A stretch of DNA of 50,199 bases from Gammaproteobacteria bacterium (GTDB lineage: Bacteria > Pseudomonadota > Gammaproteobacteria > Steroidobacterales > GCA-2729495). Under the pieces are notes generated by a model. It was not told where the DNA came from. It searched no databases and saw only the letters and a list, made by a program, of their open reading frames with translations. Position numbers and translations under genes: made by a program. Positions 3,870-49,642 of this stretch are shown here, piece by piece (the stretch's first letter is position 1; every line of letters starts with the position of its first letter). The stretch spans positions 15,813 to 66,011 of the forward strand of contig JACFNV010000002.1 of the NCBI GenBank assembly GCA_019454675.1. The letters run 5' to 3'.

Positions 3870-4181
3870 AAGTTATGACTCCGGTTGATGTCGAGCGCAC
3901 CCGCACGATCCGTGAAAGTGCCGGTGACGTCAAGCCTGCAGCTGGTGCGGGAGGCTTTGCGCGTGGCCGATCCCTGGGGGGCGGCGGTCCGGGGCTGCGA
4001 GGGTCTGGGGTGACCGGGAGGGGTGGTGATAGCCAGAGGGCGCCAGCCCGGATGGGCTGTGCGGGGACTCGAGAGGATGGCGGGGCAGCCGCCGTCGCCG
4101 TCACGGCGTGCCGCCCACTTTCCCGGGTTCGGCGCAAGCTCTTGGCTATAATGGCGGCTTGCCGGACGGCAGCGACAACGC
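3870..4181. promoter_or_regulatory. Intergenic stretch with a -10 element before tRNA-Leu
   Basis: About 310 bp separate the NTF2-like gene from tRNA-Leu. I see no convincing gene in it. A perfect TATAAT at 4147-4152, 30 nt before tRNA-Leu, is the likely -10 box; no good -35 box stands at the right spacing. The minus-strand gene must also be promoted from this stretch. Confidence 0.45.
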
Positions 4182-4266
4182 GCGAAAGTGGCGGAACTGG
4201 TAGACGCGCAGGATTTAGGTTCCTGTGGGGCAACCCGTGAGAGTTCGATCCTCTCCTTTCGCACCA
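4182..4266 (+). tRNA. tRNA-Leu (UAG)
   Basis: An 85-nt type II tRNA with a long variable arm, acceptor GCGAAAG/CTTTCGC, anticodon loop TTTAGGT (anticodon TAG), discriminator A and an encoded CCA. It lies just upstream of tig, as in related gammaproteobacteria. Confidence 0.97.
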
Positions 4267-4336
4267 TCCGCGTGATTGGGTCGTCGTCCCGCATCAGATT
4301 CATGAACCAGGGCTTGAGGAACGGGGTTTGACCGAC

Positions 4337-5617
4337 ATGCAGGTTTCGTTGGAGACGGGAGCGGGGCTGGAGCGGCGTCTGCGGGTGCAGGTGCCTGCCG
4401 ACCGGGTAGAGCAGGAAATTGCCGCGAGACTCAAGTCGGCGGCCCGTACCGTGCGCCTCAAGGGCTTCCGGCCCGGCAAGGTGCCGGCCGGCGTGATCCG
4501 GCAGCGCTTCGGCTCGCAGATCCGCCAGGAAGTGATCCAGGACATGGTCCGTTCCAGTTATTCGGAGGCCATCACCCAGGAGAAGCTGCGGCCGGTGGGC
4601 AATCCGCGCATCGAGGACGAGCCGGAGAGCACGGAGCAGGGCGTGGCCTACACCGCCATCTTCGAGGTGTATCCAGAGTTCGATGTGGCTGGTCTCGATG
4701 GCCTGGCCGTCGAAAGGCCGGAGGCCGAGGTCTCCGATGCAGATATCGACCAGACGGTGGAGCGCCTGCGCAGGCAGCATGCCGAATGGCGTCCCGCCGA
4801 TCGTGCAGCCACCGATGGCGACCAGGTCACCGTGGATTTCGACGGTAGCCTCGATGGCGAGGCGCTGGAGGGCGGCAAGGCCGAGCGCTTTCCCATCGTG
4901 ATCGGCGAAGGACGCATGCTCCCCGATTTCGAGGCCAATCTCCGCGGGCTGGCGGCAGGCGCCGACAAGCGCTTCGATGTCGTCTTTCCGGATGACTACT
5001 ACGAGGAGAGGCTGCGCGGGCGCACCGTGGCCTTCGACATCCACGTGCACGAGGTGGCGGCCCTCGAGCTGCCCGTGGTCGATGCCGACTTCATCCGCGG
5101 CTTCGATGTTGTCAGTGGCGAAATGGGCGAGTTCCGGCGCCGTATCCGGGAAAGCCTCGAGCAGGAGGCGGCCGCCAAGGCGCAGGCCGAGGTGCGTCGC
5201 CAGCTCATCGAGCAACTTCTGGCCGTCAATCCTGTCGAAGTCCCCGTAGCGATGGTGTCCCGCGAGGTGGCGGCCCTGCAGGCCGAGGCCGCGCGCAGCG
5301 TCGGTGGCGCGGATCAGCAGGCGGATGGTGCCTATGATGAAGTTGCCCGTCGTCGCGTGCGCGTGGGGCTGATTCTCGGCGAAATCATCCGCAGGCAGGA
5401 TATCGAGGCCGACCAGGGGCGGATCGGCCAGAAGCTGGATGACCTGTGCCGCCCGCACGAGCATCCCGACGAGGTGCGCAGGCTCTATCTGCAGAATGCC
5501 GAATGGATGGCGCAGATCGAGAATTCCGTGCTCGAAGAGCAGGTCATGGCCTGGCTTGCCGAGCGTGCCCGCATCACGGGCAAGAGCATTTCCTTCTCCG
5601 AGCTGATGGGCGTGTAG
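4337..5617 (+). CDS. tig: Trigger factor (ribosome-associated chaperone/PPIase)
   Basis: Trigger factor binds the ribosome exit site and shields nascent chains; it also has an FKBP-type prolyl isomerase domain. The 426-residue protein carries the ribosome-docking signature GFRPGKVP at about residues 43-50, an FKBP-like middle domain ([28 protein letters not shown]) and a helical C-terminal chaperone domain. The family usually starts MQVS, which fits the ATG at 4337. A TTG at 4328 (three more codons) lies 7 nt after a GAGGA at 4316-4320, so initiation there is possible. It is followed by clpP after a short gap, as usual in this order. Confidence 0.95.
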
Positions 5618-5636
5618 TCAAAGGATCATGAACCGA

Positions 5637-6263
5637 ATGGATACCAAGGCTCTCAATCTCGTGCCGATGGTGGTCGAGCAGACCGCGCGCGGCGAGCGTT
5701 CCTACGACATCTACTCGAGGCTGCTGAAGGAGCGGGTGGTGTTCATGGTCGGGCCCGTCGAGGACTACACCGCCAACGTCGTGGTGGCGCAGCTGCTGTA
5801 CCTGGAGTCCGAAAACCCCGACAAGGACATACACCTGTACATCAACTCCCCCGGAGGGTCGGTGAGCGCGGGGCTTTCCATCTACGACACGATGCAGTTC
5901 ATCAAGCCCGATGTCAGCACCATCTGCGTTGGCCAGGCTGCCAGCATGGGCGCGGTGTTGCTGGCTGGCGGCGCCAAGGGCAAGCGTTACAGCCTGCCGC
6001 ATTCCCGGGTGATGATCCACCAGCCCCTGGGCGGCTTCCAGGGCCAGGCCGTGGACTTCGACCGCTATGCCCGCGAGATCCTCCAGACGCGCTCGCGCCT
6101 CAACGAGATCCTCGCTAGGCACACGGGGCAGGCGATGGAGCGGATCGAGGCGGATACCGACCGCGATTATTTCATGAGCGGGGCGGAGGCTGCCGAGTAC
6201 GGGCTCATCGATACCGTGCTGGCGCAGCGTGCCCCGGTTCCGTCGCCGGGCGGTGCGGCCTGA
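5637..6263 (+). CDS. clpP: ATP-dependent Clp protease proteolytic subunit
   Basis: ClpP is the serine peptidase of ClpXP/ClpAP; fourteen subunits form a barrel in the cytosol. Counting from this start, the catalytic triad is Ser103 (in QAASMGAV), His128 (VMIHQP) and Asp177 (DTDRDYF). The hallmark NSPGGSV oxyanion strand is also present. An AAAGGA (5620-5625) is 11 nt before the ATG at 5637 but only 2 nt before an ATG at 5628, so I chose 5637; the longer form adds three residues. The gene sits between tig and clpX. Confidence 0.95.
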
Positions 6264-6295
6264 GTGTTTTCTCCCGGAAACGCGACCTGGGTGCT

Positions 6296-6325
6296 TTGCC
6301 CTGGTCGTCCGGGGCGTGATATATA
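6296..6325 (+). promoter_or_regulatory. Candidate promoter for clpX (TTGCCC-N18-TATATA)
   Basis: The 128-nt clpP-clpX gap holds TTGCCC (6296-6301) and TATATA (6320-6325) with 18 nt between them, about 65 nt before the clpX start. No sigma-32-like box was recognised. clpX may therefore have its own promoter besides read-through from clpP. Confidence 0.35.
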
Positions 6326-6391
6326 CCGGCACGAAGCCGGAATGGTGGCTCCGGCTTGCTGAAAAGCCGCCGTCACTGAACCGAGGGTGAC

Positions 6392-7714
<1,323 letters not shown>

Positions 7715-7773: not shown

Positions 7774-10185
7774 ATGTCTGAAGCCGAGCGACAGGCCCGC
7801 AAGGGCCTTCCCGTCCTGCCGCTGCGGGATGTGGTCGTCTACCCGCACATGGTGATCCCGCTGTTTGTCGGCCGCCAGAAGTCCATCCTGGCGCTCGATG
7901 CCGCCATGGCTGCCGAGAAGCAGATCCTGCTCGTGGCGCAGAAGCAGGCCGACACCGACGACCCCGGCCTCGACGACATCCATGCAGTGGGTACGCTGGC
8001 GACCATCCTGCAGCTGCTCAAGCTGCCGGACGGCACGGTCAAGGTGCTGGTGGAGGGCGTGGCACGCGCCCACCTGCGGTCCTGCCGGCAGGATGGCCAT
8101 TTTTCCGCGGACGTGGAGCCCGTCGTCGAGGACGAGGCGGTCGATGCGCGGGAGTTCGATGTGCTCAAGCGCACCATCGTCACGCAGTTCGAAAGCTACG
8201 TGAAGCTCAACAAGAAGGTTCCGCCGGAAATCCTCACTTCCCTGATGGGCATCGAGCAGCCGGGCCGCCTGGCCGACACGGTGGTTGCGCACATGTCCCT
8301 CAAGCTCGAGGCCAAGCAGAAGGTGCTCGAGATCGGCAGTGCGCGCGCGCGCTTGGAGCACGTGCTGGGCCTGGTGGATACCGAGATCGACATGCTCGAG
8401 ATCGAGAAGCGCATCCGCGGCCGCGTCAAGCAGCAGATGGAGAAGAGCCAGCGCGAGTATTACCTCAACGAGCAGATGAAGGCGATCCAGAAAGAGCTTG
8501 GCGACATGGACGATGCGCCGAACGAGATCGCCGATCTCGAACAGAAGATCGCCCAGGTCGGCATGCCGGAGGAGGCACGCGAGAAAGCGGTCTCCGAGCT
8601 GAACAAGCTCAAGATGATGTCGCCCATGTCGGCGGAAGCCACGGTGGTGCGCAACTACATCGACTGGTTGCTGAAGATGCCGTGGCGTAGCCGCACCAAG
8701 ATCAATCGCGACCTGCGCCATGCCGAGTCGGTGCTGGAGAAGGATCACTACGGCCTGGACAGGGTCAAGGAGCGCATACTCGAGTATCTTGCCGTGCAGC
8801 AGAGGGTACGCAAGACCAAGGGCCCTATCCTCTGCCTGGTCGGCCCGCCGGGCGTCGGCAAGACCTCGCTTGGGCAGAGCATTGCGCGGGCAACCAACCG
8901 CAAGTTCATCCGCATGTCGCTGGGTGGCGTGCGCGACGAGGCGGAAATACGCGGGCATCGTCGCACCTACATCGGCTCGATGCCGGGCAAGATCGTGCAG
9001 AACCTCGCCAAGAGCGGCATGCGCAATCCGCTGTTCCTGCTCGACGAGGTCGACAAGATGTCGACCGACTTCCGCGGTGATCCGTCCTCCGCGCTGCTCG
9101 AGGTGCTGGATCCGGAGCAGAACGCGGCATTCAGCGACCACTATCTGGAGGTCGATTTCGATCTCTCCGACGTGATGTTCGTCTGCACGGCGAATACGCT
9201 GAACATCCCCGCGCCGCTGCTGGACCGCATGGAGGTCATCCGCATCCCGGGCTATACCGAGGACGAAAAGCTCAATATCGCCCGCAACTACCTCATCCCC
9301 AAGCAGATGAAGGCCAACGGGCTGCGGGAGCGGGAGCTGCTCATCGGCAGTGCCGCCGTCCGCGACATCATCCGCTACTACACCCGTGAGTCGGGGGTGC
9401 GCAACCTGGAGCGGGAGATCGCCAAGATTTGCCGCAAGATCGTCAAGAGCCTGCTTCTCAAGCCGCGCAAGAAGCAGATACAAGTCGGCGCGCGCGGTCT
9501 CGACAAGTATCTTGGTGTGCGCCGCTTCCGCTATGGTCGCGCCGAAGAAACGGACCGCGTGGGCCAGGTGACCGGTCTGGCGTGGACCGAAGTTGGTGGT
9601 GAGTTGCTGACCATCGAGGCAGTCGTCGTGCCCGGCAAGGGCAAGCTCATCAATACCGGGCAGCTTGGCGATGTCATGCAGGAGTCGATCCAGGCGGCCA
9701 CCACGGTGGTGCGCAGCCGTGCGCGCGTGCTTGGCATCGACGAGGATTTCCACCAGCGCTTCGATCTGCATGTCCATGTTCCCGAAGGCGCCACGCCAAA
9801 GGATGGGCCGAGTGCGGGCGTTGGCATGTGCACGGCACTGGTTTCGGCACTCACCGGCATTCCGGTGCGCTCGGATGTGGCCATGACGGGCGAGATCACC
9901 CTGCGCGGCGAGGTGCTGCCTATCGGCGGGCTCAAGGAAAAGCTGCTGGCGGCGCACCGCGGCGGCATCGCCACGGTGCTGATCCCGAAGGATAACGAGA
10001 AGGATCTGGCGGAGATCCCGAAGAACATCAAGGACAGGCTGCATATCGTTGCAGTGCGCTGGATGGACGAGGTCCTGCAGCTGGCTCTCCAGCGCATGCC
10101 GGTGCCCAGGCCGGGAGACGATGCGGCGATGAAGGAATCGCCGAAGAAAGCCGCAACAGGTTCGAGCGGCGTGCGGGCGCATTGA
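7774..10185 (+). CDS. lon: ATP-dependent Lon protease
   Basis: Lon is a homo-oligomeric cytosolic AAA+ protease for misfolded and regulatory proteins. Domains of the 803-residue protein are an N-terminal LON substrate domain ([16 protein letters not shown]), a central coiled-coil region, the AAA+ module with Walker A GPPGVGKT from residue 357, and the protease domain with catalytic Ser680 (GPSAG) and Lys723 (in [10 protein letters not shown]), spaced 43 residues apart as in the family. I chose the ATG at 7774 because GGAGA (7764-7768) precedes it by 5 nt; an ATG at 7762 would add four residues but overlaps that ribosome binding site. Confidence 0.97.
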
Positions 10186-10209
10186 GGCACGCTTCTTTCC
10201 GTACCTTTG

Positions 10210-10239
10210 TTGACAGTGGTTTTTGCCGCTTGGTATAAG
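10210..10239 (+). promoter_or_regulatory. Promoter of hupB (TTGACA-N18-TATAAG)
   Basis: A consensus TTGACA (10210-10215) is followed after 18 nt by TATAAG (10234-10239). This leaves a 5' leader of roughly 170 nt before the hupB start, with no gene seen in it. Confidence 0.65.
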
Positions 10240-10419
10240 GATTGGCGGCTTCGTCATTCGCATGCTGCCGGGACGCGGTGTTTCCCGTGCGAATGTCTTG
10301 CAGTGCCGGAAGACCAGCGACGGGTGCAATCGTCAGCTGGTATTTGTTTGGGTTCGGATTCCCGCTGTCCGCCAGTGATGCGGGATCGTGTGTTTTTTGT
10401 CTTGTAGGGGGCGCATGCC

Positions 10420-38184: not shown

Positions 38185-38260
38185 GTCCCCATCGTCTAGA
38201 GGCCTAGGACATCGCCCTTTCACGGCGGTAACAGGGGTTCGAATCCCCTTGGGGACGCCA
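38185..38260 (+). tRNA. tRNA-Glu (UUC), prophage integration target
   Basis: A 76-nt cloverleaf with acceptor GTCCCCA/TGGGGAC, anticodon loop CTTTCAC (anticodon TTC), discriminator G and an encoded CCA. The phage recombinase gene begins its 3' end inside the antisense of this tRNA, so its 3' half is the probable attachment site and remains intact after integration. Confidence 0.96.
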
Positions 38261-39686
38261 TGGATAGGCCGTAGTGCAGCCTGCACGATAGGTCCGGCTC
38301 TAGGGTGATGTGACTCAGCGCCCCGACCAGCGCCTCGTGCGACTCCATGCCGAGGAAAATCTCGCGGATCCGCGTGGGCGTGAGGCTGCGAAGCTCGGCC
38401 TGCACCTGGTCCTCTGCGACAGACGCCGTCGCCTCGCGCTCGATCGCCTCGATCTGCCGGCCGAGGTCGCCCACCATGGCCGCGAAGATGTCGCCGTCGG
38501 CCTCGGAAATCGCCAGCTTGGCAGCCCTGTCGCGCTGCTTCCGCAGGCGTGCGATCTCGGCGTCCAGCCCCTGGAGCGAGCCCGGCCCGGCCGCAGCGTG
38601 GCAGCGGACGGCGGCGGCGAACTCGGCCACGAACGCCGGGCGCTGGAAGTCGTCGCGGATCTGCCGGACCACGGCATCCTCCAGTGCTGCCGCAGGCACC
38701 ATGCGGCCGCGTGCGCCGTGATCCGACCGCAGGCGGTAGCTCCGGCCGGCTGCGACCCATCGACGTCCGTCGCTCGTCTGGAGCAGCCCTGAGAGCAGGT
38801 AGCGGCTCATCCCGGCCTTGGCGCGGCTGACAGCGGCGCCGATCTCGCTGGTTTCGAGCTGGGCGAGGATGGCTTCGGCCTGCGCCTCGGTGATCAGGGC
38901 GTCGTGGGTGTCTGGCTGGATCTGCCACTCGCTGCGCGGGCGGCGCTTCGGCTTGCCTGTTCCGCGCTCGGCCTTCGGACGGTGACGACCCCACACGGTA
39001 TGCCCGGCGTAGACCAGGGCGTTCCACTCGATGTCGACCAGCGTGGCGGCGGACATCTCGATATCTCGGGCGGCGACAGCGCGGGGGACGCCACGGGCCC
39101 TGGCAGTGAGAAAGCGGCGGGCGGTGCTGGCGTCTTCCGATGGCACCAGCTTCGACTTCATGACCGGCCGGCCCTGGCGCACCGCCCCGGTGGTCTCGTG
39201 GTGCAGGCGGTAGCCCCACGGCGCACGGCCGCCGGCCCGCCATCCTCGGCGGATGTTCTCGCGCATGCCGGCGACGCCCTTCTCCCGGCTCATGATCGAG
39301 TGCACCTCGTCCATGGCCTCGAACACGGCATCGAGGATCACGGCGGACACCGGGTCGGTCTCTGGGATCTTGGCGTACAGGATGTCGACGGCCCTGCGGC
39401 GGCACTCGTGCTTGAATGCCTGCGCGATGTAGCGGCCGCGGGCGATGCGGCTGGTGTCGTAGACGAGCAGGGTGGACCAGCCGCGGCGCGGGTTCTTCAG
39501 GTCCTGGATGAGCTCTTGGAAGGCCGGGCGGTCATCGGTGGAGCCCGACTTGACGGCGTCCCTATACGTCCGCGCGATTGTCAGCCCGCGGGAGGCTGCC
39601 AGTGCGTTCAGCTCGTGCAGCTGCGCGGACAGGCTCACGTCGGACCTGTCCTTCGAGCTGCGCACGTAGGCGGCCGCCTTGCTCAT
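38220..39686 (-). CDS. Large serine recombinase (phage integrase)
   Basis: A 488-residue site-specific recombinase. Residues 1-150 are the resolvase-type catalytic domain (AAYVRSSKD with presumed nucleophile Ser11; VYDTSRIARGR), residues about 165-265 the Recombinase DNA-binding domain (GWRAGGRAPWGYRL), then a zinc-ribbon-like segment (RYLLSGLLQTSDGRRW to LEDAVVRQI) that lacks all the expected Cys, and a coiled coil (about 370-430). GGAGGGG lies just before the ATG at 39686, while an upstream start at 39740 lacks this. The last residues and the TGA are read from the antisense of tRNA-Glu. It would insert and excise the prophage. Confidence 0.9.
   Translation of the reverse strand: MSKAAAYVRSSKDRSDVSLSAQLHELNALAASRGLTIARTYRDAVKSGSTDDRPAFQELIQDLKNPRRGWSTLLVYDTSRIARGRYIAQAFKHECRRRAVDILYAKIPETDPVSAVILDAVFEAMDEVHSIMSREKGVAGMRENIRRGWRAGGRAPWGYRLHHETTGAVRQGRPVMKSKLVPSEDASTARRFLTARARGVPRAVAARDIEMSAATLVDIEWNALVYAGHTVWGRHRPKAERGTGKPKRRPRSEWQIQPDTHDALITEAQAEAILAQLETSEIGAAVSRAKAGMSRYLLSGLLQTSDGRRWVAAGRSYRLRSDHGARGRMVPAAALEDAVVRQIRDDFQRPAFVAEFAAAVRCHAAAGPGSLQGLDAEIARLRKQRDRAAKLAISEADGDIFAAMVGDLGRQIEAIEREATASVAEDQVQAELRSLTPTRIREIFLGMESHEALVGALSHITLEPDLSCRLHYGLSMASPRGFEPLLPP
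38221..38260. other. Probable left attachment site in the tRNA-Glu 3' half
   Basis: The junction of host tRNA and phage lies in or at the end of the tRNA-Glu gene. The T arm and acceptor region are the usual crossover segment and the phage restores the tRNA. The exact core cannot be defined without the other attachment site. Confidence 0.5.
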
Positions 39687-39795
39687 TTCCCCTCCGGCTT
39701 TGTAGTTCTTCTGCCAGGATGTTGGCGATGGCGCCCGCATCTGGCGTGCCGACAGATGGCAGCATGGTAATCGGACTGTCCTGTCGGCGCGACAT
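39562..39795 (-). CDS. Possible small overlapping phage ORF
   Basis: An ATG at 39795, 8 nt after the stop of the repeat protein gene, opens a 77-codon frame beginning MSRRQDSPITMLPSVGTPDA. Its first 37 codons fill the gap before the recombinase; the rest overlaps the recombinase N-terminus in another frame and turns Arg-rich, as out-of-frame GC-rich DNA does. It may be a short leader coupled to the recombinase, or chance. No family recognised. Confidence 0.25.
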   Translation of the reverse strand: MSRRQDSPITMLPSVGTPDAGAIANILAEELQSRRGNEQGGRLRAQLEGQVRREPVRAAARAERTGSLPRADNRADV

Positions 39796-39803
39796 ATCCG
39801 CTA

Positions 39804-40190
39804 CTACCGCCACCGCCGCAGCGCGGCCGAGATGGCGCTCTGCTCGCTGGCGATGGTCTTGTCGCGGTCGGCGCCCGACGGGCGGTGGCCCTTGTTGGCC
39901 TCCTGCCTGGCCTTGCGGGCGGCGATGCTGGCGGCCGCCTCCTCGGGGGTCTCGCCCCGGCCGGTGATCCGCTTGTAGATGGCCCGTTCGGCCACGCCGG
40001 CCTGCTTCGCCGCGGCGCAGATGCGGGCGCGCAGCAGCGGGTCCCGGCGCTGCATCCTGCTGGCGGCTTCCTCCGGCGCCTCGCCGCACCGCCTCATCCG
40101 CTTGCGCAGGGCGTCCACCGTCACGCCGGCGTCCCGCGCCGCCTCGCGGATGGCTTCCGCCCGGGCCGATCTTCTCTCCCCCGGCGTCAT
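39804..40190 (-). CDS. Small phage protein with two tandem HTH-like repeats
   Basis: A basic 128-residue protein built from two similar units of about 35-40 residues: IREAARDAGVTVDALRKRM-RRCGEAPEEAA and ICAAAKQAGVAERAIYKRI-TGRGETPEEAA. Each reads as a helix-turn-helix (alanine-rich helix, G-V turn, recognition-like basic helix) followed by an EEA tail. The motif resembles the R-GWSxEEAL endings of phage HNH/AP2-type DNA-binding proteins. A role as a regulator or recombination directionality factor is possible from its place next to the recombinase, but this is inference. GGTGAG precedes the ATG. Confidence 0.6.
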   Translation of the reverse strand: MTPGERRSARAEAIREAARDAGVTVDALRKRMRRCGEAPEEAASRMQRRDPLLRARICAAAKQAGVAERAIYKRITGRGETPEEAAASIAARKARQEANKGHRPSGADRDKTIASEQSAISAALRRWR

Positions 40191-40245
40191 GCCGTCTCAC
40201 CTGCCGGCGACAGGCCGGAGGGGGTGCGCAGCATGGTGACGGCGG

Positions 40246-40443
40246 TCATGCTGCGCTCCTGAAAACGGCGAGCTGGGCCAGCACGGCTTCCAGCTCCTGG
40301 TTGAACTGTTCGACCGCGACGGCGATCTCGGCGATGCGCCGCTCGTCGCGCTCCACGCGGTGGATGAAGATCGGGAGACCGGGCCAATAGCTGGCGAAGT
40401 CGCACCAGCTGCGCCCGCTGACCCACACCCGCGCTTTCAGCGG
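40246..40443 (-). pseudogene. C-terminal remnant of a YqaJ/lambda-type exonuclease
   Basis: The frame from just after an in-frame TAG (40444-40446) to the stop at 40246 encodes 65 residues: KARVWVSGRSWCDFASYWP, then LPIFIHRVERDERRIAEI and a helical end. This is the typical C-terminus of YqaJ-family phage alkaline exonucleases (about 200-330 residues when whole). The catalytic Asp, Glu and Lys of the nuclease fold would lie upstream and are absent. A GTG at 40428 could start a 60-residue product, but a functional nuclease is excluded. It marks a deletion that removed the recombination module. Confidence 0.65.
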
Positions 40444-40497
40444 CTACACCTGATCGGGCCTGCCCATACCGCGCAACCTCGCTGGTAGGGTTTTCGC

Positions 40498-40809
40498 GTG
40501 GACGATTACGACCCGACGAACATCCGCGGCCAGGAGCTCGCGCAGGCAGATGCGAAGACGCAAGCCAAGCTGGCCGACGAGACCGAGGGCACGGATCTGG
40601 TGTGGCTGATGAGCAGCAAGAGGGGGCGACGCATCGTGTGGCGGATCTTGAGCAGCGCTGGCGTGTTCAACCTCACGTTCAATTCCGACCCGCTGGTCAT
40701 GGCCTTCGGTGAGGGCGCCCGCAGCCAGGGGCTGCGCATGCTGGCGAGGCTGCACGAGCTCTGCCCGCAGCGGTACACGACGATGGTGAAGGAGCAGGCG
40801 AGTGTCTGA
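40498..40809 (+). CDS. Bbp19-like phage protein
   Basis: A 103-residue protein with the pattern RRIVWRILSSAGVFNLTFNSDPLVMAFGEG (given here by its parts at about residues 44-73) and a C-terminal LARLHELCPQRYTTMVKEQ, matching small proteins encoded between portal and scaffold in BPP-1-like podoviruses. Its function is not established. It starts with GTG and its end overlaps the scaffold gene start by 8 nt. It is the first gene of the co-directional structural block; no portal gene stands before it. Confidence 0.6.
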   Translation: MDDYDPTNIRGQELAQADAKTQAKLADETEGTDLVWLMSSKRGRRIVWRILSSAGVFNLTFNSDPLVMAFGEGARSQGLRMLARLHELCPQRYTTMVKEQASV

Positions 40810-41479
40810 CGACACGCTGATGACCGGGCAGGCGGCTGGTGCCGATGATGCGGCTGCCGCTGCCGCTGGTGCAGACGATGCCGCCAAGGCCGGCGCCGCT
40901 CCCGCAGACGACCAGCAGGCCGCCGCCGCTCCCGCCGATGACAAGGGCGCAGCCGCTGAGGCTGCCGCCAAGGGAGGCGAGGATGCAGGCAAGGACGGCA
41001 AGGCAGCCGAGAAGCCGGCCGGCGCCCCCGACAGCTACGAGTTCAAGGCGCCAGACGGCGTCACCCTCGATGACGCGGTCGTCGGGGCGTTCGCGGAAGT
41101 CGCCAAGGACCTGAACCTGCCGCAGGAACAGGCCCAGAAGGTCATCGACAAGATCGCCCCGGTGCTTGCCACGCAGGCGACCGAGCGATTGCAGGCCGCC
41201 CGCACCGAGTGGGTGGAGAACGCCAAGGCCGACAAGGAGTTCGGTGGCGACAAGCTGGAAGAAAACCTCGGCGTGGCCAAGAAGGCACTGGAAACCTTCG
41301 CCACGCCGGAGCTGCGCACGTTACTGGAAGACTCCGGCCTCGGTGACCACCCTGACGTCATCAGGCTGTTTTTCCGTGTTGGCAAGGCCATCAGCGAAGA
41401 CGGCGTTGTCAGCGGGAAGCCGGGGACATCCGCTCCCCAGTCCATCGCGCAGCGTATGTACCCCAACATGAACCCCTGA
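40802..41479 (+). CDS. Putative capsid scaffolding/assembly protein
   Basis: An acidic 225-residue protein immediately before the capsid gene. Residues about 10-75 are a low-complexity Ala/Asp/Lys-rich segment; then comes a folded, helical part (YEFKAPDGVTLDDAVVGAFAEVAKDLNLPQ at about 78-107, given for position; TPELRTLLEDSGLGDHPDVIRLFFRVGKA near the end). This composition and place are typical of podovirus scaffolds. GTG start overlapping the previous gene. No protease motif is visible. Confidence 0.7.
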   Translation: MSDDTLMTGQAAGADDAAAAAAGADDAAKAGAAPADDQQAAAAPADDKGAAAEAAAKGGEDAGKDGKAAEKPAGAPDSYEFKAPDGVTLDDAVVGAFAEVAKDLNLPQEQAQKVIDKIAPVLATQATERLQAARTEWVENAKADKEFGGDKLEENLGVAKKALETFATPELRTLLEDSGLGDHPDVIRLFFRVGKAISEDGVVSGKPGTSAPQSIAQRMYPNMNP

Positions 41480-41494
41480 CGGAGATAACAGATC

Positions 41495-42514
41495 ATGGCA
41501 GTCCTGAACGCAGGCCAGCTCACCCTGGCGGACATGAGCAAGCGGCTCGGCCCTGATGGCAAGGTCGATCCCATCGCCGAGCTTCTGAGCCAGCAGAACG
41601 AGATCCTCGAGGACATCGTCTGGAAGGAAGCCAACCAGCCGACGAGCCACGTCGTCACGATCCGCACCGGCCTGCCGGCCGTCTACTGGCGCCAGTACAA
41701 CGCTGGCGTGCCGACGAGCAAGAGCACCACGGCGCAGATCACTGAGCCGTGCGCCATGCTCGAGGCCCGCAGCCATATCGACGCAAAGCTCCTGACGCTG
41801 AACGGCAACTCGGCAGCCTTCCGGCTGAGCGAGGAGAGCCCGTTCATCGAGGCGATGAATCAGGAGATGACGGGCAAGATCTTCAACGGCAACGTCGCGG
41901 CCGACGCGAAGACATTCTCCGGCCTCGCCACCCGCTACAGCCTGGTCTCTGCCGGCAACGGCAACAACGTCATCAAGGCCGGCGGCTCCGGCTCCGACAA
42001 TGCCTCGATCTACCTCATCGTGTGGGGCGAGCAGACGGCGTTCATGACCTTCCCCAAGGGCAGCCGCGCAGGCCTCAGCTCCCGCGACCTCGGCGAGGAG
42101 TCGGTGCAGGACGGCAGTGGCAACTGGTATCAGGCGGCCCGCTCACTGTACCAGTGGGATGCCGGCTTGGTGGTGAAGGATTGGCGCTACGTCGTTCGCA
42201 TCGCGAACATCGACGTCAGCGACTGGATCGGCGTGACCGGCACGCAGGCGACTTCTGCTGTCACGAACCTCATCAAGCTGATGATGCGCGCCATCGCTCG
42301 CATCCCGAACTTCAGCATGGGCCGGGCGGCGTTCTATGCCAACCGCTCGATTCAGGAGGGCCTGATGATCCAGGCGCTGGACAAGTCGTCCAACGCGCTC
42401 GGCATCCAGCCTGCGCTGTCGCAGTTCGGCCAGAACATCAACCAGCTCACCTTCATGGGCATCCCGGTTCGCGGCGTCGACCAGCTCGGCATCGCTGAAA
42501 CCCTCGTGCCCTAA
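41495..42514 (+). CDS. Major capsid protein
   Basis: A 339-residue protein in the place of the head protein, between scaffold and cement genes. It begins AVLNAGQLTLADMSKRLGPD and contains an N-terminal helical region with ILEDIVWKEANQPTSH, a central DASIY/NASIYLIVWG strand region and RGVDQLGIAETLVP at the C-terminus, as in the HK97-fold capsids of BPP-1-like podoviruses. GGAGAT lies 8 nt before the ATG. It appears full-length and undamaged. Confidence 0.8.
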   Translation: MAVLNAGQLTLADMSKRLGPDGKVDPIAELLSQQNEILEDIVWKEANQPTSHVVTIRTGLPAVYWRQYNAGVPTSKSTTAQITEPCAMLEARSHIDAKLLTLNGNSAAFRLSEESPFIEAMNQEMTGKIFNGNVAADAKTFSGLATRYSLVSAGNGNNVIKAGGSGSDNASIYLIVWGEQTAFMTFPKGSRAGLSSRDLGEESVQDGSGNWYQAARSLYQWDAGLVVKDWRYVVRIANIDVSDWIGVTGTQATSAVTNLIKLMMRAIARIPNFSMGRAAFYANRSIQEGLMIQALDKSSNALGIQPALSQFGQNINQLTFMGIPVRGVDQLGIAETLVP

Positions 42515-42534
42515 CCCATCCGGAGTACACGAAC

Positions 42535-43008
42535 ATGATGACTGATGCACTGACCACCTTCGCGGAAGGCGTGAGCGCAGCCACGACCGGCGTCGTGGGC
42601 GATGTGATGGACCTCGGCGTCGCCCGAGACATCGGGATCGGACGCCAGCTCTACTGCGTGATCAACGTGGATGTGGCGGTTGCCGGCGCCGCCGCCGGCG
42701 CCGAGGTCCAGTTCGAGGTCGTGACGGCCGCCGATGCGCCACTGACCTCCAGTCCCCTTGTCGTCGGGGCGTCCGCTGTACTGCTCGGAGCGAACCTCAC
42801 ACCGGCGATTGGGCCGATCGTGATTCCGCTCGGGCAGGTTGCGAACAACAACGCGCAGAATCGCCGCGGCCGGATATATCTCGGCCTGCGTGCAACCATC
42901 CTTGCCAACGGTCCGGCCACCGGCCTGGTGGTGAGCGCATACCTCACCGACACCGATGTCGTGTCGCCGCAGGGTCCGTACTACCCGAGCGGCTTCACCG
43001 TCGCGTAA
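42535..43008 (+). CDS. Bbp16-like capsid cement protein
   Basis: A 157-residue, mostly beta protein directly after the capsid gene. It reads DVMDLGVARDIGIGRQLYCVI, VQFEVVTAADAPLTSS, then a jelly-roll-like strand series and PYYPSGFTVA. Bordetella phage BPP-1 has a cement protein of this type (Bbp16) that decorates the head. GGAG lies 9 nt before the first ATG; a second ATG follows directly. Confidence 0.7.
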   Translation: MMTDALTTFAEGVSAATTGVVGDVMDLGVARDIGIGRQLYCVINVDVAVAGAAAGAEVQFEVVTAADAPLTSSPLVVGASAVLLGANLTPAIGPIVIPLGQVANNNAQNRRGRIYLGLRATILANGPATGLVVSAYLTDTDVVSPQGPYYPSGFTVA

Positions 43009-43017
43009 GGGGTCGTC

Positions 43018-43203
43018 ATGGCGAAGTACATCGTGCTCCGCGACACCTGGCTGTCGCACGAGTGCCGGGTGGCGAGGGCCGGCGAGGAGATCGAGACCGA
43101 GTTCCCGAAGGGCATGCGGCTGAGCGACAACCTCCAGCTCGCATCCCAGCGGGTAGAGGCCGGCGGCAAGGAGCGCAAGCCTCCTGCCGATGACCTGGGC
43201 TGA
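43018..43203 (+). CDS. Small phage protein of unknown function
   Basis: A 61-residue protein following the cement gene by 9 nt, with AAGGGG before its ATG. It contains YIVLRDTWLSHECRVARAGE and a hydrophilic C-terminus. No family recognised. The tight spacing and good ribosome binding site make it likely to be real. A terminator follows. Confidence 0.6.
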   Translation: MAKYIVLRDTWLSHECRVARAGEEIETEFPKGMRLSDNLQLASQRVEAGGKERKPPADDLG

Positions 43204-43238
43204 TCCCTCCCCCAGCCCGGGCCTGCGACCGGTAACTA

Positions 43239-43265
43239 CGGGGGCCTCGTGCCCCCGCTTTTTTT
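43239..43265 (+). terminator. Intrinsic terminator inside the phage structural block
   Basis: CGGGGGC (43239-43245), loop CTCGT, GCCCCCG (43251-43257), then C and seven T's. It would end or attenuate the capsid transcript before the head-tail genes, reducing their expression relative to the capsid. Confidence 0.9.
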
Positions 43266-43278
43266 GGACGGATGACCG

Positions 43279-43884
43279 ATGGCGTCTGAGGTAGACATCT
43301 GCAATCTCGCACTGGCGCACCTCGGCGACGAGGCCACGGTGTCCAGCATCGACCCGCCGGAGGGTTCGGCGCAGGCCGAGCACTGCGCGCGGTTCTACCC
43401 GATCGCCCGCGACACCCTGCTGGAGTCCCACGCATGGCGATTCGCCACCCGCCGCGAGGTGCTGGCGGAGCTTGCCGACGAGGTGCCCGGCTGGCGATTC
43501 GCCTACGCGCTGCCGGTCGATACGGTGCAGATCCTTGCGGTGCTGGGGCCGGACCAGTCGAGCGAGGAGGGCACGCAGGCCTTTGACGTGGAGATGGGCG
43601 CCGACGGGGCGGGCGTCATCCTCACCAACCAGCCCGAGGCGACCGTCCGCTATGTGGCACGGGTGACGGACAGCATCCGGTTCTCGCCGATGTTCATCGA
43701 TGCGCTCGCGTGGCTGCTGGCCTCCTACCTTGCCGGGCCCGTCCTGAAGGGCGACGCTGGGGCCGCGATGGCGCGGGCCTGCCTGCAGTCGTTCATGATG
43801 GCGATCTCCGGCGCCCGTGTGTCGGACGCGAACCAGCGCCACGTCCTCACGGAGCGCACGCCAGGCTGGATCGCGGGGCGGTAG
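43279..43884 (+). CDS. Head-tail connector / tail tubular protein A-like
   Basis: A 201-residue protein that begins with ICNLALAHLGDEATVSSIDPP and contains ARFYPIARDTLLESHAWRFA, the recognisable pattern of T7 gp11/P22 gp4-like adaptors that bind below the portal. The C-terminal half is helical (FIDALAWLLASYLAGPVLKG). GGACGGA precedes the ATG by 8 nt. Confidence 0.75.
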   Translation: MASEVDICNLALAHLGDEATVSSIDPPEGSAQAEHCARFYPIARDTLLESHAWRFATRREVLAELADEVPGWRFAYALPVDTVQILAVLGPDQSSEEGTQAFDVEMGADGAGVILTNQPEATVRYVARVTDSIRFSPMFIDALAWLLASYLAGPVLKGDAGAAMARACLQSFMMAISGARVSDANQRHVLTERTPGWIAGR

Positions 43885-43887
43885 TCG

Positions 43888-45972
43888 GTGGCCAATACCC
43901 GCACGCTGCAGCGCTCATTCTCGGGCGGCGAGATCAGCCCGGAGATGTTCGGGCGCAACGACGACACCAAGTACCAGGCGGGCCTCGCGCGTTGCCGCAA
44001 CTTCATCGTCCGCCCGCAGGGCCCAGTGGACAACCGCCCGGGCTTCGAGTTCGTCAGCCGCACCCGGTGGAGCGACGCCAACCCGCTGCTGGCCGCCGAC
44101 AACCCAGAGCCGGTGCGGCTGATCCCGTTCACCTATTCGACCACGCAGACGATGGTGATCGAACTGGGGCCGGGGTATTTCCGGTTCCACAGCAACGGCC
44201 TCACCCTGCTGGATGCCGGATCGCCCTATGAAATATTCAACAGCTACGCCGCGGCCGACCTGTTCGACATCCACTACGTGCAGTCGGCAGACGTACTGAC
44301 ACTGGTCCATCCGGGCTACCCGCCGTCCGAACTGCGCCGCCTCGGCGCCACCAACTGGACGTTCACGCCAATCGACTTCACCCCGCAGATCAGCGCGCCG
44401 ACCGGGCTGACGGCGACCGCCTCGGGGCACACGACGGCCAAGTACCTCTACGAGTACGTCGTCACCGCGGTGTCTGCCGATGGGCTGCAGGAGTCGGTGC
44501 CGTCCGTGATTGCCGGCGATACAGGGAACCTGTACGAGTCGGGCGGCATCGTGACGGTCAGCTGGACGGCTGTCGGCGGGGCGTCTTCATACAACGTCTA
44601 CAAGATGCAGGGTGGTCTGTTCGGCTACGTCGGCTCGCCTACGGCCGCCACGTTCACGGACGACAACATCGCGCCGGACATGGGCAAGACCCCGCCGCGC
44701 TACGAGGGCGTGTTTGCAGGCAGCGGCGACTACCCGGGCGCGGTGTCCTACTTCGAGCAGCGGCGCGTGTTCGCCGGCACGCGCAACCAGCCGCAGAACA
44801 TCTGGATGACGCGATCGGGCACCGAGTCGAACATGAGCTACTCGATCCCGGTGCGCGACGATGACCGGATCTCGTTCCGCGTGGCGGCCCGCGAGGCCAA
44901 CACCATCCGGCATATCGTGCCGCTGAACGACCTGATGATGATGACGTCCTCGGCCGAGTGGCGGGTGACCAGCGTGAACAACGACGCGGTGACGCCGAGC
45001 AGCATCAGCGTGCGCCCACAGTCCTACATCGGCGCCAGCAACGTCCAGCCGATCATCGTCAACAACACGCTGCTCTATGGCGCGGCCCGCGGCGGGCACG
45101 TCTACGAGCTCGCCTACAGCTGGCAGGCCAGCGGCTTCGTGACAGGGGATGCCTCGATCCGGGCCGCCCACCTGTTCGACGACGACACCATCGTCGACAT
45201 GTGCTACGCCAAGGCGCCGACGCCGATCGCGTGGTTCGTGACCGCGAGCGGGCGCCTGCTGGGGCTGACCTACGTGCCCGAGCAGCAGGTCGGTGCCTGG
45301 CACTGGCACGACACGGACGGGTGGTTCGAGTCCTGCACCACGGTCGCCGAGGGCGACGAGGACGTCCTGTACTGCGTGGTCCGCCGCAAGGTGGGCGGCT
45401 ACATGCGCCGGTTCATCGAGCGGATGGCCTCGCGCCGGTTCGGCGCGCAGCAGGACGCCTTCTTCGTGGACAGCGGCGTGCGCTACTCGGGCGCTCCGAC
45501 CGCGACCGTCAGCGGCCTCAATCATCTGGCTGGGAAGACGGTCAGCATTCTGGCCGACGGGGCGGTGATGCCTCAGAAGGAGGTGCCGGTCGGCGGCACG
45601 GTCAACATCGGCGTGGAGGCGAGCGTCGTGCAGGTCGGCCTGCCGATCGAGGCCGACATGCAGACGCTGCCGCTCGCGATCCAGCTGCAGGACGGCAGTG
45701 CCGGGCAGGGGCGGGTGAAGAACGTCAACCAGGTATGGCTGCGGGTGCTGCGCTCCTCAGGGATCTTCGCCGGCCCCGATGCCGACAACCTGGTCGAGGC
45801 CAAGCAGCGCACCACCGAGAACTACGGCGAGCCGCCGGCGCTGAAAAGCGACGAGATCAACATCCGGCTTTCACCATCGTGGGCGGCCAGCGGGCAGGTG
45901 TTCGTGCGCCAGTCTGACCCGTTGCCGCTCACGGTGGTGAGCCTCACGGCCGAAGTGTCACTGGGGGGCTGA
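43888..45972 (+). CDS. Large virion structural protein (tail nozzle/stabilisation type) with FN3-like insert
   Basis: A 694-residue protein that follows the adaptor gene. It starts with RSFSGGEISPEMFGRNDDTKY and RNFIVRPQGPVDNRPGFEF, a pattern common to podovirus proteins that follow the adaptor and form the tail tube or nozzle. Residues about 165-265 look like a fibronectin-type III module (APTGLTATASG, YLYEYVVTAVSADG, SWTAVGGASSYNVYK), as in related phages. The GTG start is 3 nt after the upstream stop. Exact role is inferred from position. Confidence 0.7.
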   Translation: MANTRTLQRSFSGGEISPEMFGRNDDTKYQAGLARCRNFIVRPQGPVDNRPGFEFVSRTRWSDANPLLAADNPEPVRLIPFTYSTTQTMVIELGPGYFRFHSNGLTLLDAGSPYEIFNSYAAADLFDIHYVQSADVLTLVHPGYPPSELRRLGATNWTFTPIDFTPQISAPTGLTATASGHTTAKYLYEYVVTAVSADGLQESVPSVIAGDTGNLYESGGIVTVSWTAVGGASSYNVYKMQGGLFGYVGSPTAATFTDDNIAPDMGKTPPRYEGVFAGSGDYPGAVSYFEQRRVFAGTRNQPQNIWMTRSGTESNMSYSIPVRDDDRISFRVAAREANTIRHIVPLNDLMMMTSSAEWRVTSVNNDAVTPSSISVRPQSYIGASNVQPIIVNNTLLYGAARGGHVYELAYSWQASGFVTGDASIRAAHLFDDDTIVDMCYAKAPTPIAWFVTASGRLLGLTYVPEQQVGAWHWHDTDGWFESCTTVAEGDEDVLYCVVRRKVGGYMRRFIERMASRRFGAQQDAFFVDSGVRYSGAPTATVSGLNHLAGKTVSILADGAVMPQKEVPVGGTVNIGVEASVVQVGLPIEADMQTLPLAIQLQDGSAGQGRVKNVNQVWLRVLRSSGIFAGPDADNLVEAKQRTTENYGEPPALKSDEINIRLSPSWAASGQVFVRQSDPLPLTVVSLTAEVSLGG

Positions 45973-45973
45973 T

Positions 45974-46513
45974 ATGGGCGCGCCATCACTTGTCATGCAG
46001 ATCGGCGGGCTGGCCGCGTCCACCGCCGGCAGCTACTACGGGGCCTCGCAGCAGAAGATCGGCCTGCGCTCGGAGGCGAGCATCGCCGACATCAACGCGC
46101 GCCTCGCCGAGATGAGCGCGCAGTCGGCGCTGTTCAAGGGCGAGCGCGAGGTCGGGGCGCTGACCATGCGCGCCGGGCAGATGAAGGGCAGCCAGCGGGC
46201 GGCGATGGCCGCCAACGGCATTGACCTTGGCACCGGCAGCGCGGCCGAGGTGCAGGCCTCCACCGACGTCATGAAGGAGATGGACGCCAACACGTTGATC
46301 GCCAATGCCGTGCGCGAGGCCTGGGGCCACCGGACGCAGGCGACGAATTACCGCAACGAGGCGCTCATGAAGCGGGCCTCGGCGAAGGCCATCAAGCCGG
46401 GACTGACGGCTGCCAGCACGCTGCTCGGGGGTGCCGGCAGCGTCGCCTCGTCCTGGTACACGCTGAACAAGGAAGGGGCGCTGGACGGCACCGTCTTCGC
46501 CCTGAAGGGCTGA
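45974..46513 (+). CDS. Internal virion (core) protein, gp14-like
   Basis: A 179-residue protein, rich in Ala, Gly and polar residues, with long helices (IADINARLAEMSAQSALFKGE, RAAMAANGIDLGTGSAAEV). Its N-terminal glycine-rich GGLAASTAGSYYGASQQ and position after the nozzle gene match T7 gp14-like internal virion proteins that are ejected to form a channel. Starts just after the upstream stop. Confidence 0.6.
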   Translation: MGAPSLVMQIGGLAASTAGSYYGASQQKIGLRSEASIADINARLAEMSAQSALFKGEREVGALTMRAGQMKGSQRAAMAANGIDLGTGSAAEVQASTDVMKEMDANTLIANAVREAWGHRTQATNYRNEALMKRASAKAIKPGLTAASTLLGGAGSVASSWYTLNKEGALDGTVFALKG

Positions 46514-46516
46514 TCC

Positions 46517-48181
46517 ATGCCTCGCGTTCCCACCTACGACAGCCCGCAGGTCACGCCTACCACGCTGCCGCAGGTCCGCCTGACACCGCAGGCGATGCCC
46601 GATATTGCCGGCCAGCAGATGCGCGAGGCCGGGCAGGCGATGCAGCGCGCCGGGAGCGAGGTCAGCCGGATCGCCCTGCACCTTGCCCAGCAGGCCAACG
46701 AGACGAGGGCCGACGCGGCGCTCACCGAGTACGTGCGGGCCGACACCGACCTGCGCCTCGAGGCGCTCTCGCTCAAGGGCAACGATGCGGTCAACCGGCC
46801 GGACGGCAAGAACCTGCCCGACGAGTTCGTCGAGCGGGCCAACAAAGCGGCGAGCGAGATCGAGGGCCGGCTCGAGAACGCGGCCCAGCGCGAGGCCTTC
46901 CGTCGCCGCGTGACGCCGATGCAGGACTCGATGTACCAGCGCCTGGCCGTCCACCGGGTGGACCAGGAGCGCGCCTACGCGGGCGAGCAGCGGAAGGCCA
47001 CCATCGACACGGCCATCTACCGGGGCGGCGTTCTGTGGGGCGACAAGGAGGAGGTGCAGCGGTCTGAGGACACCATCCGGTTGATGGTCGAGCAAGGCAT
47101 CGAGGCCGACGGCGTGGCCGGCGACCCGCAGATCCGCGAGGCACGGATGCTGGCCGAGCTCTCCCCGCTGCACTCGGCCGTCATCAACGGCATGGCCGAT
47201 GCCCACCGGGTGGACCTCGCCCGCGAGTACTACCAGCGCAACAGCGCCAGCATGACGCTGCAGGCGCGGGACCGGGCCATGCAGCTGCTGGAGACCGCCG
47301 ACTTCGAGGAGCGCACGCAGGAAATCTCCGGCGGCCTGTACGCGAAGCACGGCGGCAACGCCGCAGCGGCCATCGCCGAGGCGCGCGAGAAGCTATCCGG
47401 CAAGGAGGAGGACGCAGTCATCAACCGCCTCAAGGGCCTCGACGCCGACCGCGTGGCGTTCCGTGAGCGGGCGCAGTCGGATGCGGCAGACGCGGCGTGG
47501 CGGATCTACGCGAACGACCGCGGCATGGACAACATTCCGCCGTCCCTGCTCGCTGCCATGGACGGCCGAGACATCGAGGCGATGCGGAGAACCGCGGCGG
47601 CGGAGTCTGGCGGAAACGACGTCAAGACCGACTCGGAGGCCTACTACTACCTGACCATGATGGCGGCCGACGACCCGCAGCAGTTCGCCGCCACCGACCT
47701 GCGCAGGTTCTACGACAAGCTTTCGCCAGCCGACCGCAATCACTTCGCCAACGCGCAGGCCACGCTTCTCGGCAAGACCCAGGACCATGGCGTAGCGACG
47801 GCGCAGCAGCAGATCGCCGCCACCATCAAGCTGCTTGGCCTCGTGGACAAGCGGGCCGGCCTGTTCGCGCAGGAGGCCAACAAGGCCTTGGACGCTGCGC
47901 AGCAGGACGCGGGCCGCAAGCTCACGCAGGAGGAGCGGCAGAAGACCATCGACTGGCTGGCGAGCGATGCCTCGACCCGCGCCAAGTTCTTCGGCATCGA
48001 TATGCCATTCGGTGCCAGTTCGCGCGTATTCGAGGCTGAGGCCGCGGGCCTGCCGTACACGGTGAAGTTCTCCGATGCTGACAAGCGCAAGGCTCGTTCC
48101 GCGCTGGAGCGCCGAGGCGTCGTCAACCCGACTGACGAGCAGGTGGATGCCGTCATCCGTGCCGTGCGCGGGGTGAAGTGA
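46517..48181 (+). CDS. Internal virion protein, gp15-like
   Basis: A 554-residue, mostly helical protein beginning PRVPTYDSPQVTPTTLPQVRL and QQMREAGQAMQRAGSEV, the usual start of internal virion proteins in podoviruses. No catalytic motifs are seen. It follows the gp14-like gene by 3 nt and its stop overlaps the ATG of the next gene. It appears intact. Confidence 0.65.
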   Translation: MPRVPTYDSPQVTPTTLPQVRLTPQAMPDIAGQQMREAGQAMQRAGSEVSRIALHLAQQANETRADAALTEYVRADTDLRLEALSLKGNDAVNRPDGKNLPDEFVERANKAASEIEGRLENAAQREAFRRRVTPMQDSMYQRLAVHRVDQERAYAGEQRKATIDTAIYRGGVLWGDKEEVQRSEDTIRLMVEQGIEADGVAGDPQIREARMLAELSPLHSAVINGMADAHRVDLAREYYQRNSASMTLQARDRAMQLLETADFEERTQEISGGLYAKHGGNAAAAIAEAREKLSGKEEDAVINRLKGLDADRVAFRERAQSDAADAAWRIYANDRGMDNIPPSLLAAMDGRDIEAMRRTAAAESGGNDVKTDSEAYYYLTMMAADDPQQFAATDLRRFYDKLSPADRNHFANAQATLLGKTQDHGVATAQQQIAATIKLLGLVDKRAGLFAQEANKALDAAQQDAGRKLTQEERQKTIDWLASDASTRAKFFGIDMPFGASSRVFEAEAAGLPYTVKFSDADKRKARSALERRGVVNPTDEQVDAVIRAVRGVK

Positions 48182-48597
48182 TGGACGAGTTCGACAAGGC
48201 GGCTTCCGGCCTGACCGACGACTTCGACGTCGCCGCCTCGCAGGTGGTCAACGATCAGCGCTCGGCCGTGCGCTCGAGCGTCTACGGGGCGCTTCAGGCG
48301 AACCCAGACCTTGCCGCCCGCACCATCAAGATGAGCCGGCAGACCGGCATCCCGGCCGAGATGGTCAAGAGCAACCTGCCGGAGATCGAGCGCAACGCCA
48401 AGATCGACGAGTACGACAAGCTGTTGCTCAATTCTCCGGTGACGGCAAAGTGGGTGCTCGAGGCGTTCTCCGCGTCTTGGCGCAGGCTCTGGCCGCCGCT
48501 CCCCCGAGGGGCTGGAAACATTCGATGGACGCATCTGATGCGGTCGCAATGTGGGACAGCAAGGAGGGAGCCGAGGCGGTTTTCTGGACAGACCTGA
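48181..48597 (+). pseudogene. N-terminal remnant of a large polyvalent internal virion protein
   Basis: Residues 1 to about 93 (MDEFDKAASGLTDDFDVAAS to LLLNSPVTAKWVL) read as the N-terminus of the very large (often thousands of residues) polyvalent proteins that follow gp15-like genes in this kind of phage. After about nt 48460 the frame becomes Trp/Arg/Pro-rich nonsense (ASWRRLWPPLPRG) and stops, while meaningful sequence continues in another frame. This suggests an internal deletion joining out of frame. A programmed frameshift is the less likely alternative. Confidence 0.6.
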
Positions 48598-49283
48598 GCG
48601 GCAAGCTCGCGGAGGATGCCCCATCCATTGCAAGCTTCTCGCACTCAGTCAGTCGGTCTGCCATCAATCACATCCGCGAGCGTCACGGATCAGCGGAGCG
48701 TGAAGCCAAGCGTGGGCAGCTGGCTGTGAAGGCGGCGGACGTGGCGCGCATTCCTGAGATCGTCACCGGCTACGACGCGATCCGGACCGATCTGGAGACG
48801 GACCAAGGCTCGCAGCGCATCGCCTACGCCAAGGCGGTAGACGATGGCGTGATCGTGCTCATCGAGGACGTGAGCAATAAGCGCAAGGACATGCGCGCGG
48901 TGTCCATGTGGAAGTTCCCGCCGACGGCAGACCCACGCAGGCTGCTCGATTCGTCCCTGCAGGGCGGCGTCAAAATGGAAGAAGCCCGGAAAACCGGGCT
49001 TCTAGGTGACGCACTCCGCTCACTTCCGGACGATGAATCCGGCGCGCAAGCTCCGTCGCCTCGGAAAAGTGTAGGCCCGGAGCGAGGGGAACTCAACCAA
49101 TCCGGCACCGAGTCGGACGCCGAGGCAGCCCGGCGCGAGCACGCGGAGACCGAGCGGGCCTACGGCGGGCGCGAGGCTTACGAGGCGGCCAAGGCGGCAG
49201 GGCAGACGAAGCTCAACTTCTTCCAGTGGGTGCAGGTCCGCACGCCGCGGTTCAAGCAGTGGTTGCGGACACCTACACGCTGA
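48450..49283 (+). pseudogene. Middle fragment of the polyvalent protein with a PBECR-like nuclease domain
   Basis: From about nt 48520 this frame encodes a compact domain: SMDASDAVAMWDSKEGAEAV, SVSRSAINHIRERHG, RGQLAVKAADVARIPEIV, VIVLIEDVSNKRKDM. The H-I-x-E-R-H-G pattern followed by an IPEI segment is typical of Phage-Barnase-EndoU-ColicinE5/D-RelE-like (PBECR) nuclease domains in polyvalent phage proteins. The end (NFFQWVQVRTPRFKQW) is the well-known linker before the next domain in such proteins, but the frame then stops at RTPTR. No convincing start codon of its own exists (the GTG at 48450 has no ribosome binding site). Which PBECR subfamily cannot be told. Confidence 0.6.
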
Positions 49284-49642
49284 AACTCACCTGCTCAGGC
49301 GTGGCGGACGCGAGCGCCAAGGTGATCTGGACCCTGCCGACACAGAACACGGACGGCTCGCAGCTCACCAATCTGGCGTCCACCAAGGTCTACTACGGCT
49401 CGACCACGGGCGCGCTCACCCAGTCGCGCACGGTGCCCGTGCCCGGCACCACGACGACCTTCACTGATCTGGCGCCCGGTACGTGGCGGTTCCAAGCATC
49501 TGCGGTCAATGCCTCTGGCGTGGAGTCCGAGCGCACGGCGGTAGTGCAGAAGGTCATCGGCACTACGCCGACCGACGCCGAGACGGTGACGCTGGTCGTT
49601 AACCCGATCCCGCGCCCGCCGACGGCTGTGGCGGTGGAATGA
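49226..49642 (+). pseudogene. 5'-truncated FN3-domain phage protein
   Basis: The useful sequence starts near nt 49264 (ADTYTLKLTCSGVADASAK). It reads as one fibronectin-type III-like domain (KVYYGSTTGALTQSRTV, FTDLAPGTWRFQASAVNASG) and a C-terminal tail with Pro-rich end. The 13 residues before it are the out-of-frame copy of the preceding gene's linker, so the true N-terminus seems deleted. A 138-residue product from the GTG at 49226 is possible. Its TGA overlaps the ATG of the next gene. Confidence 0.5.

Follow-up and report, generated by a model that had tools for sequence, protein, structure and literature searches.

Remnants of a large polyvalent protein gene in a defective BPP-1-like prophage

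Near the end of the 50,199-nucleotide stretch of Gammaproteobacteria DNA analyzed here (the window), three consecutive forward ORFs lie in three different frames, and the question they raise is whether they represent three small genes, a single gene interrupted by frameshifts, or the remains of something larger. The initial annotation had read them as one giant polyvalent phage gene, collapsed by two deletions of several kilobases in a decaying prophage. We compared the locus with related phages in order to define which parts are missing and from which genes the remaining pieces were derived.

Three open frames and their domains

The ORF list placed the three frames at 48181-48597, 48450-49283, and 49226-49642. 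Among the Pfam matches, the first frame was found to contain LPD22 (PF18834; E = 1.2e-13), covering profile positions 9-64 of 97 and truncated at its 3' end, and the second PBECR3 (PF18812; E = 8.4e-18), while the third possessed a weak fn3 match (E = 0.005) under the Pfam cut-off. The three recognizable pieces previously described, an N-terminal domain, a nuclease, and an FN3-like tail, are therefore all present, as is the NFFQWVQVRTPRFKQW linker noted with the nuclease domain, which terminates at the second junction. The segments retained in and beside the locus, and the breaks between them, are as follows.

48181 to 48456, plus strand: 5' end of the giant gene, N-terminal region and truncated LPD22 (PF18834, E = 1.2e-13; N-termini of relatives)
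48457 to 48479, no strand: deletion junction 1, placed by the spacing in relatives L003, L119, and L033
48480 to 49115, plus strand: internal piece of the giant gene, PBECR3 and linker (PF18812, E = 8.4e-18; 65% identity to L003 residues 582-783)
49116 to 49264, plus strand: NFFQWVQVRTPRFKQW linker segment of the giant gene (92% DNA identity over 149 bp to the same-genus contig G004:C54, L010/L022)
49265 to 49270, no strand: deletion junction 2, between the end of the left homology (L022) at 49264 and the start of the right homology (L009) at 49271
49271 to 49642, plus strand: 3' part of an FN3 gene, about 124 of 199 codons (79% amino acid and 76% DNA identity to L009 10010-10382)
49639 to 50103, plus strand: intact downstream neighbor, phrog_3108 (E = 1.7e-42; 71% identity to the L009 neighbor)

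Both LPD22 and PBECR3 exceed the Pfam cut-offs and together form the combination of an LPD domain and a conflict-type effector domain that characterizes large polyvalent genes. LPD and PBECR domains are similarly joined, in a context of virion genes, in the large polyvalent proteins that phages and conjugative elements encode; unlike those proteins, the multidomain polypeptide of the window is broken, with its pieces occupying different frames and not one continuous chain (Iyer et al. 2017, PMC5512222). A chance origin of the pieces was excluded because of the E-values and the collinear order shared with intact phages. Despite its weak fn3 score, the third piece is real coding sequence: 126 of its residues align at 79% amino acid identity with a gene of phage contig L009. 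The three-frame locus is the relic of a large polyvalent protein gene, and it has the features of a deletion-derived pseudogene, with intact homologues collinear to the pieces and DNA absent at the breaks.

The first ORF starts at ATG 48181 (alternative GTG 48178), and this start codon overlaps the stop codon of the preceding gene (TGATG). Its giant-gene portion was 35-52% identical to the N-termini of the intact giant genes of L003, L005, L073, L088, and L119, after which the frame runs on out of register to 48597. The predicted RNase domain of PBECR3 was located at approximately 48633-48920, and alignment showed that the conserved His and Ser are retained: the HI..(R/K)HG motif and the Ser/Thr position of AVSMWKFP are common to L003, L119, L033, and L009. 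PBECR domains are predicted RNases with an active-site His and Ser/Thr (PMC5512222). Judged by its sequence, the phrog_3108 neighbor would encode an endolysin-like protein.

Intact relatives and the two junctions

Relatives were gathered through homologues of the tail protein, resulting in 93 loci. In L003 and L004 (IMGVR 3300012860_000001 and 2765235871_000001), the homologue of window positions 46517-48181 is followed by a single 2,052-aa ORF with LPD22 first and PBECR3 at residues 629-728, and L119 likewise contains LPD22 and then PBECR3. The domain order is that of the window, with the PBECR3 segment 65% identical; unlike the window, these relatives possess one unbroken frame of more than 2,000 codons, in which 1,458 bp separate the two domains. 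The first two pieces stem from one gene, and for them the proposal of a collapsed giant gene held. Neither the NFFQ linker nor the FN3 gene was found in the stretches examined of L003/L004 and L119. Among named phages, Bordetella phage BPP-1 (Rauchvirus) is the closest (tail protein 67% identical); its bbp10 is intact at 2,052 aa with LPD22 first and a PBECR-type nuclease at residues 643-729, although this domain is PBECR1 and that of the window PBECR3.

Intact forms were counted among the 49 relatives whose sequence extends 6 kb or more beyond the homologue of the 554-aa gene; in 43 of these, the next ORF is a giant frame that runs unbroken for 1,923-3,133 codons. A shorter next ORF was recorded in the remaining six (L046, L060, L066, L070, L074, and L107), all with the FN3 gene absent from the available stretch; L046, L060, L066, and L074 keep another frame of more than 1,100 codons in the region. 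It was noted that the giant-gene region of L060, L066, L074, L070, and L107 is divided into shorter frames, for which a frameshift, a split, or decay are possible.

At junction 1, homology to the intact relatives stops after the codon at 48454-48456 and picks up at 48480 or up to 6 bases earlier. Past 48456 the aligned relatives read ...QW(V/L)(A/T)D.NNA..(G/S)HDD while the window diverges, and the second piece rejoins them at ...AQALAAAPPRGWKHS, with 48480 as the anchor. Between the same anchors, the spacing was 1,458 bp in both L003 and L119 and 1,536 bp in L033, compared to 23 bp in the window. The loss of approximately 1,435 bp relative to L003 and L119 is not divisible by three, in keeping with the shift between frames. 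The longest exact match of the junction 1 region elsewhere in the window was 11 bp.

Junction 2 was delimited using two different elements. On its left side, window positions 49116-49264 match a giant-gene fragment from a same-genus genome (G004:C54) at 92% over 149 bp, with the match ending exactly at 49264; past the linker, the frame of that fragment continues as ...RFKQWFGDWE... into LPD3, followed by ART-PolyVal and MuF_C. On its right side, L009 (IMGVR 3300028826_000012) possesses an intact 199-aa FN3 gene at 9782-10381, 79% identical, of which the window retains the 3' part from 49271. The L009 gene begins with MAMKKTILLIGALLTAGVAQA, an N-terminus that looks like a signal peptide, and the gene after it is again phrog_3108, 71% identical to the one that follows in the window. 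In the window, the first approximately 75 codons are gone, so that the FN3 piece is left without its own start and without the signal-peptide-like segment. Unlike the window, L009 also has its own giant gene, with PBECR3 and LPD38, and its FN3 gene lies 4.7 kb beyond the end of that gene, with two tail-type and two small genes between them.

From these comparisons, the third piece belongs to a separate FN3 gene and not to the giant gene, and deletion 2 therefore crosses gene borders. This is the point at which the proposed collapse of a single giant gene did not stand. In L003, 3.8 kb of the giant gene remains after PBECR3, and deletion 2 is estimated at about 8.5 kb, a size pieced together from two phages; it would comprise the giant-gene remainder, the tail-fiber and lysis genes, and the first part of the FN3 gene. 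The two homology breaks agree with the junctions proposed near 48460 and 49264, and the reading of two deletions was upheld, except that deletion 1 measures about 1.4 kb and not several kilobases. Both breakpoints are bracketed and not exact, as the closest relatives share 50-80% protein identity and no single intact relative contains all of the parts.

The giant-gene fragment of G004:C54 (L022) comes from a second giant polyvalent gene (LPD3, ART-PolyVal, MuF_C); it is located at the contig start (1-3369) and ends approximately 0.5 kb from a long minus-strand ORF resembling mutS (3906-6497). It is probably another prophage remnant. L022 and the window are alike only in the NFFQ linker segment (92% DNA identity), which suggests possible domain shuffling at the linker.

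A homologous phage with the same three short genes was looked for. The three-piece arrangement was found in none of the 49 relatives with enough sequence, and a phage sharing it was encountered neither in 60 related genomes (DNA), nor in 40 family genomes (protein), nor at the 93 tail-protein loci. The exact sequences of junctions 1 and 2 were absent from 2.9 million viral contigs, and BLASTN against phages returned two short matches only.

A third gap and a defective prophage

The locus lies at the right of a BPP-1-like (Rauchvirus-type) prophage, for which three further features were recorded.

38220 to 39740, minus strand: serine-type integrase ORF at the left end of the prophage (phrog_95, E = 2e-46), ending inside tRNA-Glu (38185-38260)
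40420 to 40498, no strand: third gap, with terminase, portal, and early genes missing before phrog_528 (from the BPP-1 order and the terminase/portal of L025; exact join undefined)
40498 to 48181, plus strand: BPP-1-like structural block (profile and protein matches)

The structural block comprises phrog_528, a protease, the major head protein, phrog_427, two tail proteins, an internal virion protein, and a 554-aa internal protein. Together with the giant gene, it is collinear with BPP-1, which shares the order protease, head, tail, tail, internal virion protein, endolysin/internal protein, and giant gene; in BPP-1 itself, the order runs from terminase and portal through bbp20 and bbp19 to the protease, MCP, tail proteins, internal virion protein, endolysin, bbp10, tail fiber, Mtd, and further genes. 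The integrase at the tRNA end also accords with a prophage of this type. Unlike BPP-1, the window possesses neither terminase nor portal: after the integrase and tRNA-Glu, approximately 0.7 kb without recognized phage genes leads directly to phrog_528 and the protease. This third gap was overlooked in the initial annotation. No match to terminase or portal was found in the window and no portal remnant in 39700-40520, and elsewhere in the genome there was no credible portal (best E = 0.007 at 26% identity). The assembly contains a single copy of the tRNA-Glu end, with no attR copy, and the right attachment site is absent from the contig.

With terminase and portal lost, the prophage cannot package DNA. 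It is defective for several independent reasons and should be scored as such, and the prophage decay originally proposed is borne out by both the shortened giant gene and the loss of terminase and portal.

It was noted that the window homologue of BPP-1 bbp11 (46517-48181) has 554 aa compared to about 720-735. It aligns over its full length with the 562-aa form of Limnohabitans phage DC33 (L005) and appears to be without the transglycosylase segment of L003; the 554-aa form seems to be a natural short form and not a product of decay. The record of phage DC33 (PQ492659.1) names Inoviridae, yet the phage is 39 kb long and has a giant gene of 3,126 codons as well as BPP-1-like tail proteins, so that this taxonomic entry looks wrong. 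A tail protein 60% identical to that of the window is carried by L037 (JAIXXG010000130.1), a contig of 4.2 kb that was binned as Microbacteriaceae. The tail-protein phage group was otherwise found almost only in Proteobacteria in these searches, and the assignment is likely a binning error.

Probable decay by deletion and its alternatives

Very probably, the pieces are relics of two deletions in a degenerate BPP-1-related prophage. Deletion 1 would have removed the part of the giant gene between LPD22 and PBECR3, and deletion 2 would have started just past the NFFQWVQVRTPRFKQW linker, taken out what remained of the giant gene together with the tail-fiber and lysis genes, and ended within the FN3 gene, with a further gap taking the terminase and portal. 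These deletions would have occurred in this lineage, probably through recombination that required little or no sequence similarity. The frame is lost at each junction, so that the giant protein can no longer be synthesized as a single chain. In intact relatives, the gene is located in the block of virion genes, and its protein is probably packaged in the virion and injected, as has been argued for polyvalent proteins acting as counter-defense cocktails (Iyer et al., PMC5512222). The loss appears to be recent because the pieces hold no further stop codons.

An artefact of assembly or library preparation, in which two or more chimeric joins conceal a prophage that is truly intact, is unlikely, though it retains more weight than the other alternatives. 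The 2.38-Mb genome assembly is fragmented into 191 contigs, this contig (G000:C136:15813-66011) ends with the window only 557 bp after the third piece, and the absence of both junction sequences from the viral contigs also counts in favor of an artefact. However, an assembler chimera needs approximately 20 or more shared bases, whereas the junctions share at most 11-12 bp with the rest of the window, and the proxies for the two parental sequences at junction 2 (L022 and L009) share no overlap. Neither the portal nor the absent giant-gene parts were found elsewhere in the assembly, and decay accounts better than three chimeras for three separate losses in a single prophage.

It is also conceivable that the short genes are now in use, with the PBECR3 piece freed to act as a solo RNase and the FN3 piece serving as a small gene. 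Phages do carry solo PBECR genes (PMC5512222), and the frame of the PBECR3 piece is open, with the His and Ser of the family's predicted active site retained. Such a functional rearrangement is nevertheless highly improbable: LPD22 is cut within the domain, the startless FN3 piece is preceded only by out-of-frame giant-gene sequence, no homologous phage found has the arrangement, and the missing terminase and portal leave no working phage. Equally slight is the chance that the PBECR3 nuclease was freed as a small stand-alone RNase gene kept and used by the host or a satellite. Two base-level frameshifts in an otherwise full gene, real or from sequencing error, are what three adjacent frames resemble at first glance, but approximately 1.4 kb is absent at junction 1 and the sequence becomes a different gene at junction 2. 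A plain pair of frameshifts was rejected on the spacing in relatives and the missing lengths, and we give it almost no credence.

Overall, this is ordinary prophage decay, and the locus offers a clear case of decay through large deletions that cross gene borders. For annotation, it carries the warning that the LPD22, PBECR3, and FN3 ORFs are pseudogene remnants of two genes, neither three genes nor one.

Within the retained linker, right after PBECR3, a 10-bp perfect hairpin was noted at 48980-49003 (AGAAGCCCGG-AAAA-CCGGGCTTCT; fold z = -2.7), and on the minus strand it has a T-rich tail. An attenuator or terminator inside the giant gene are candidate roles for this hairpin. A DNA-conserved stretch at 49023-49060 (GAYNATGAATCCGRCGCGCAARCTCCGTC) was encountered in six viral contigs, after PBECR3 in each.
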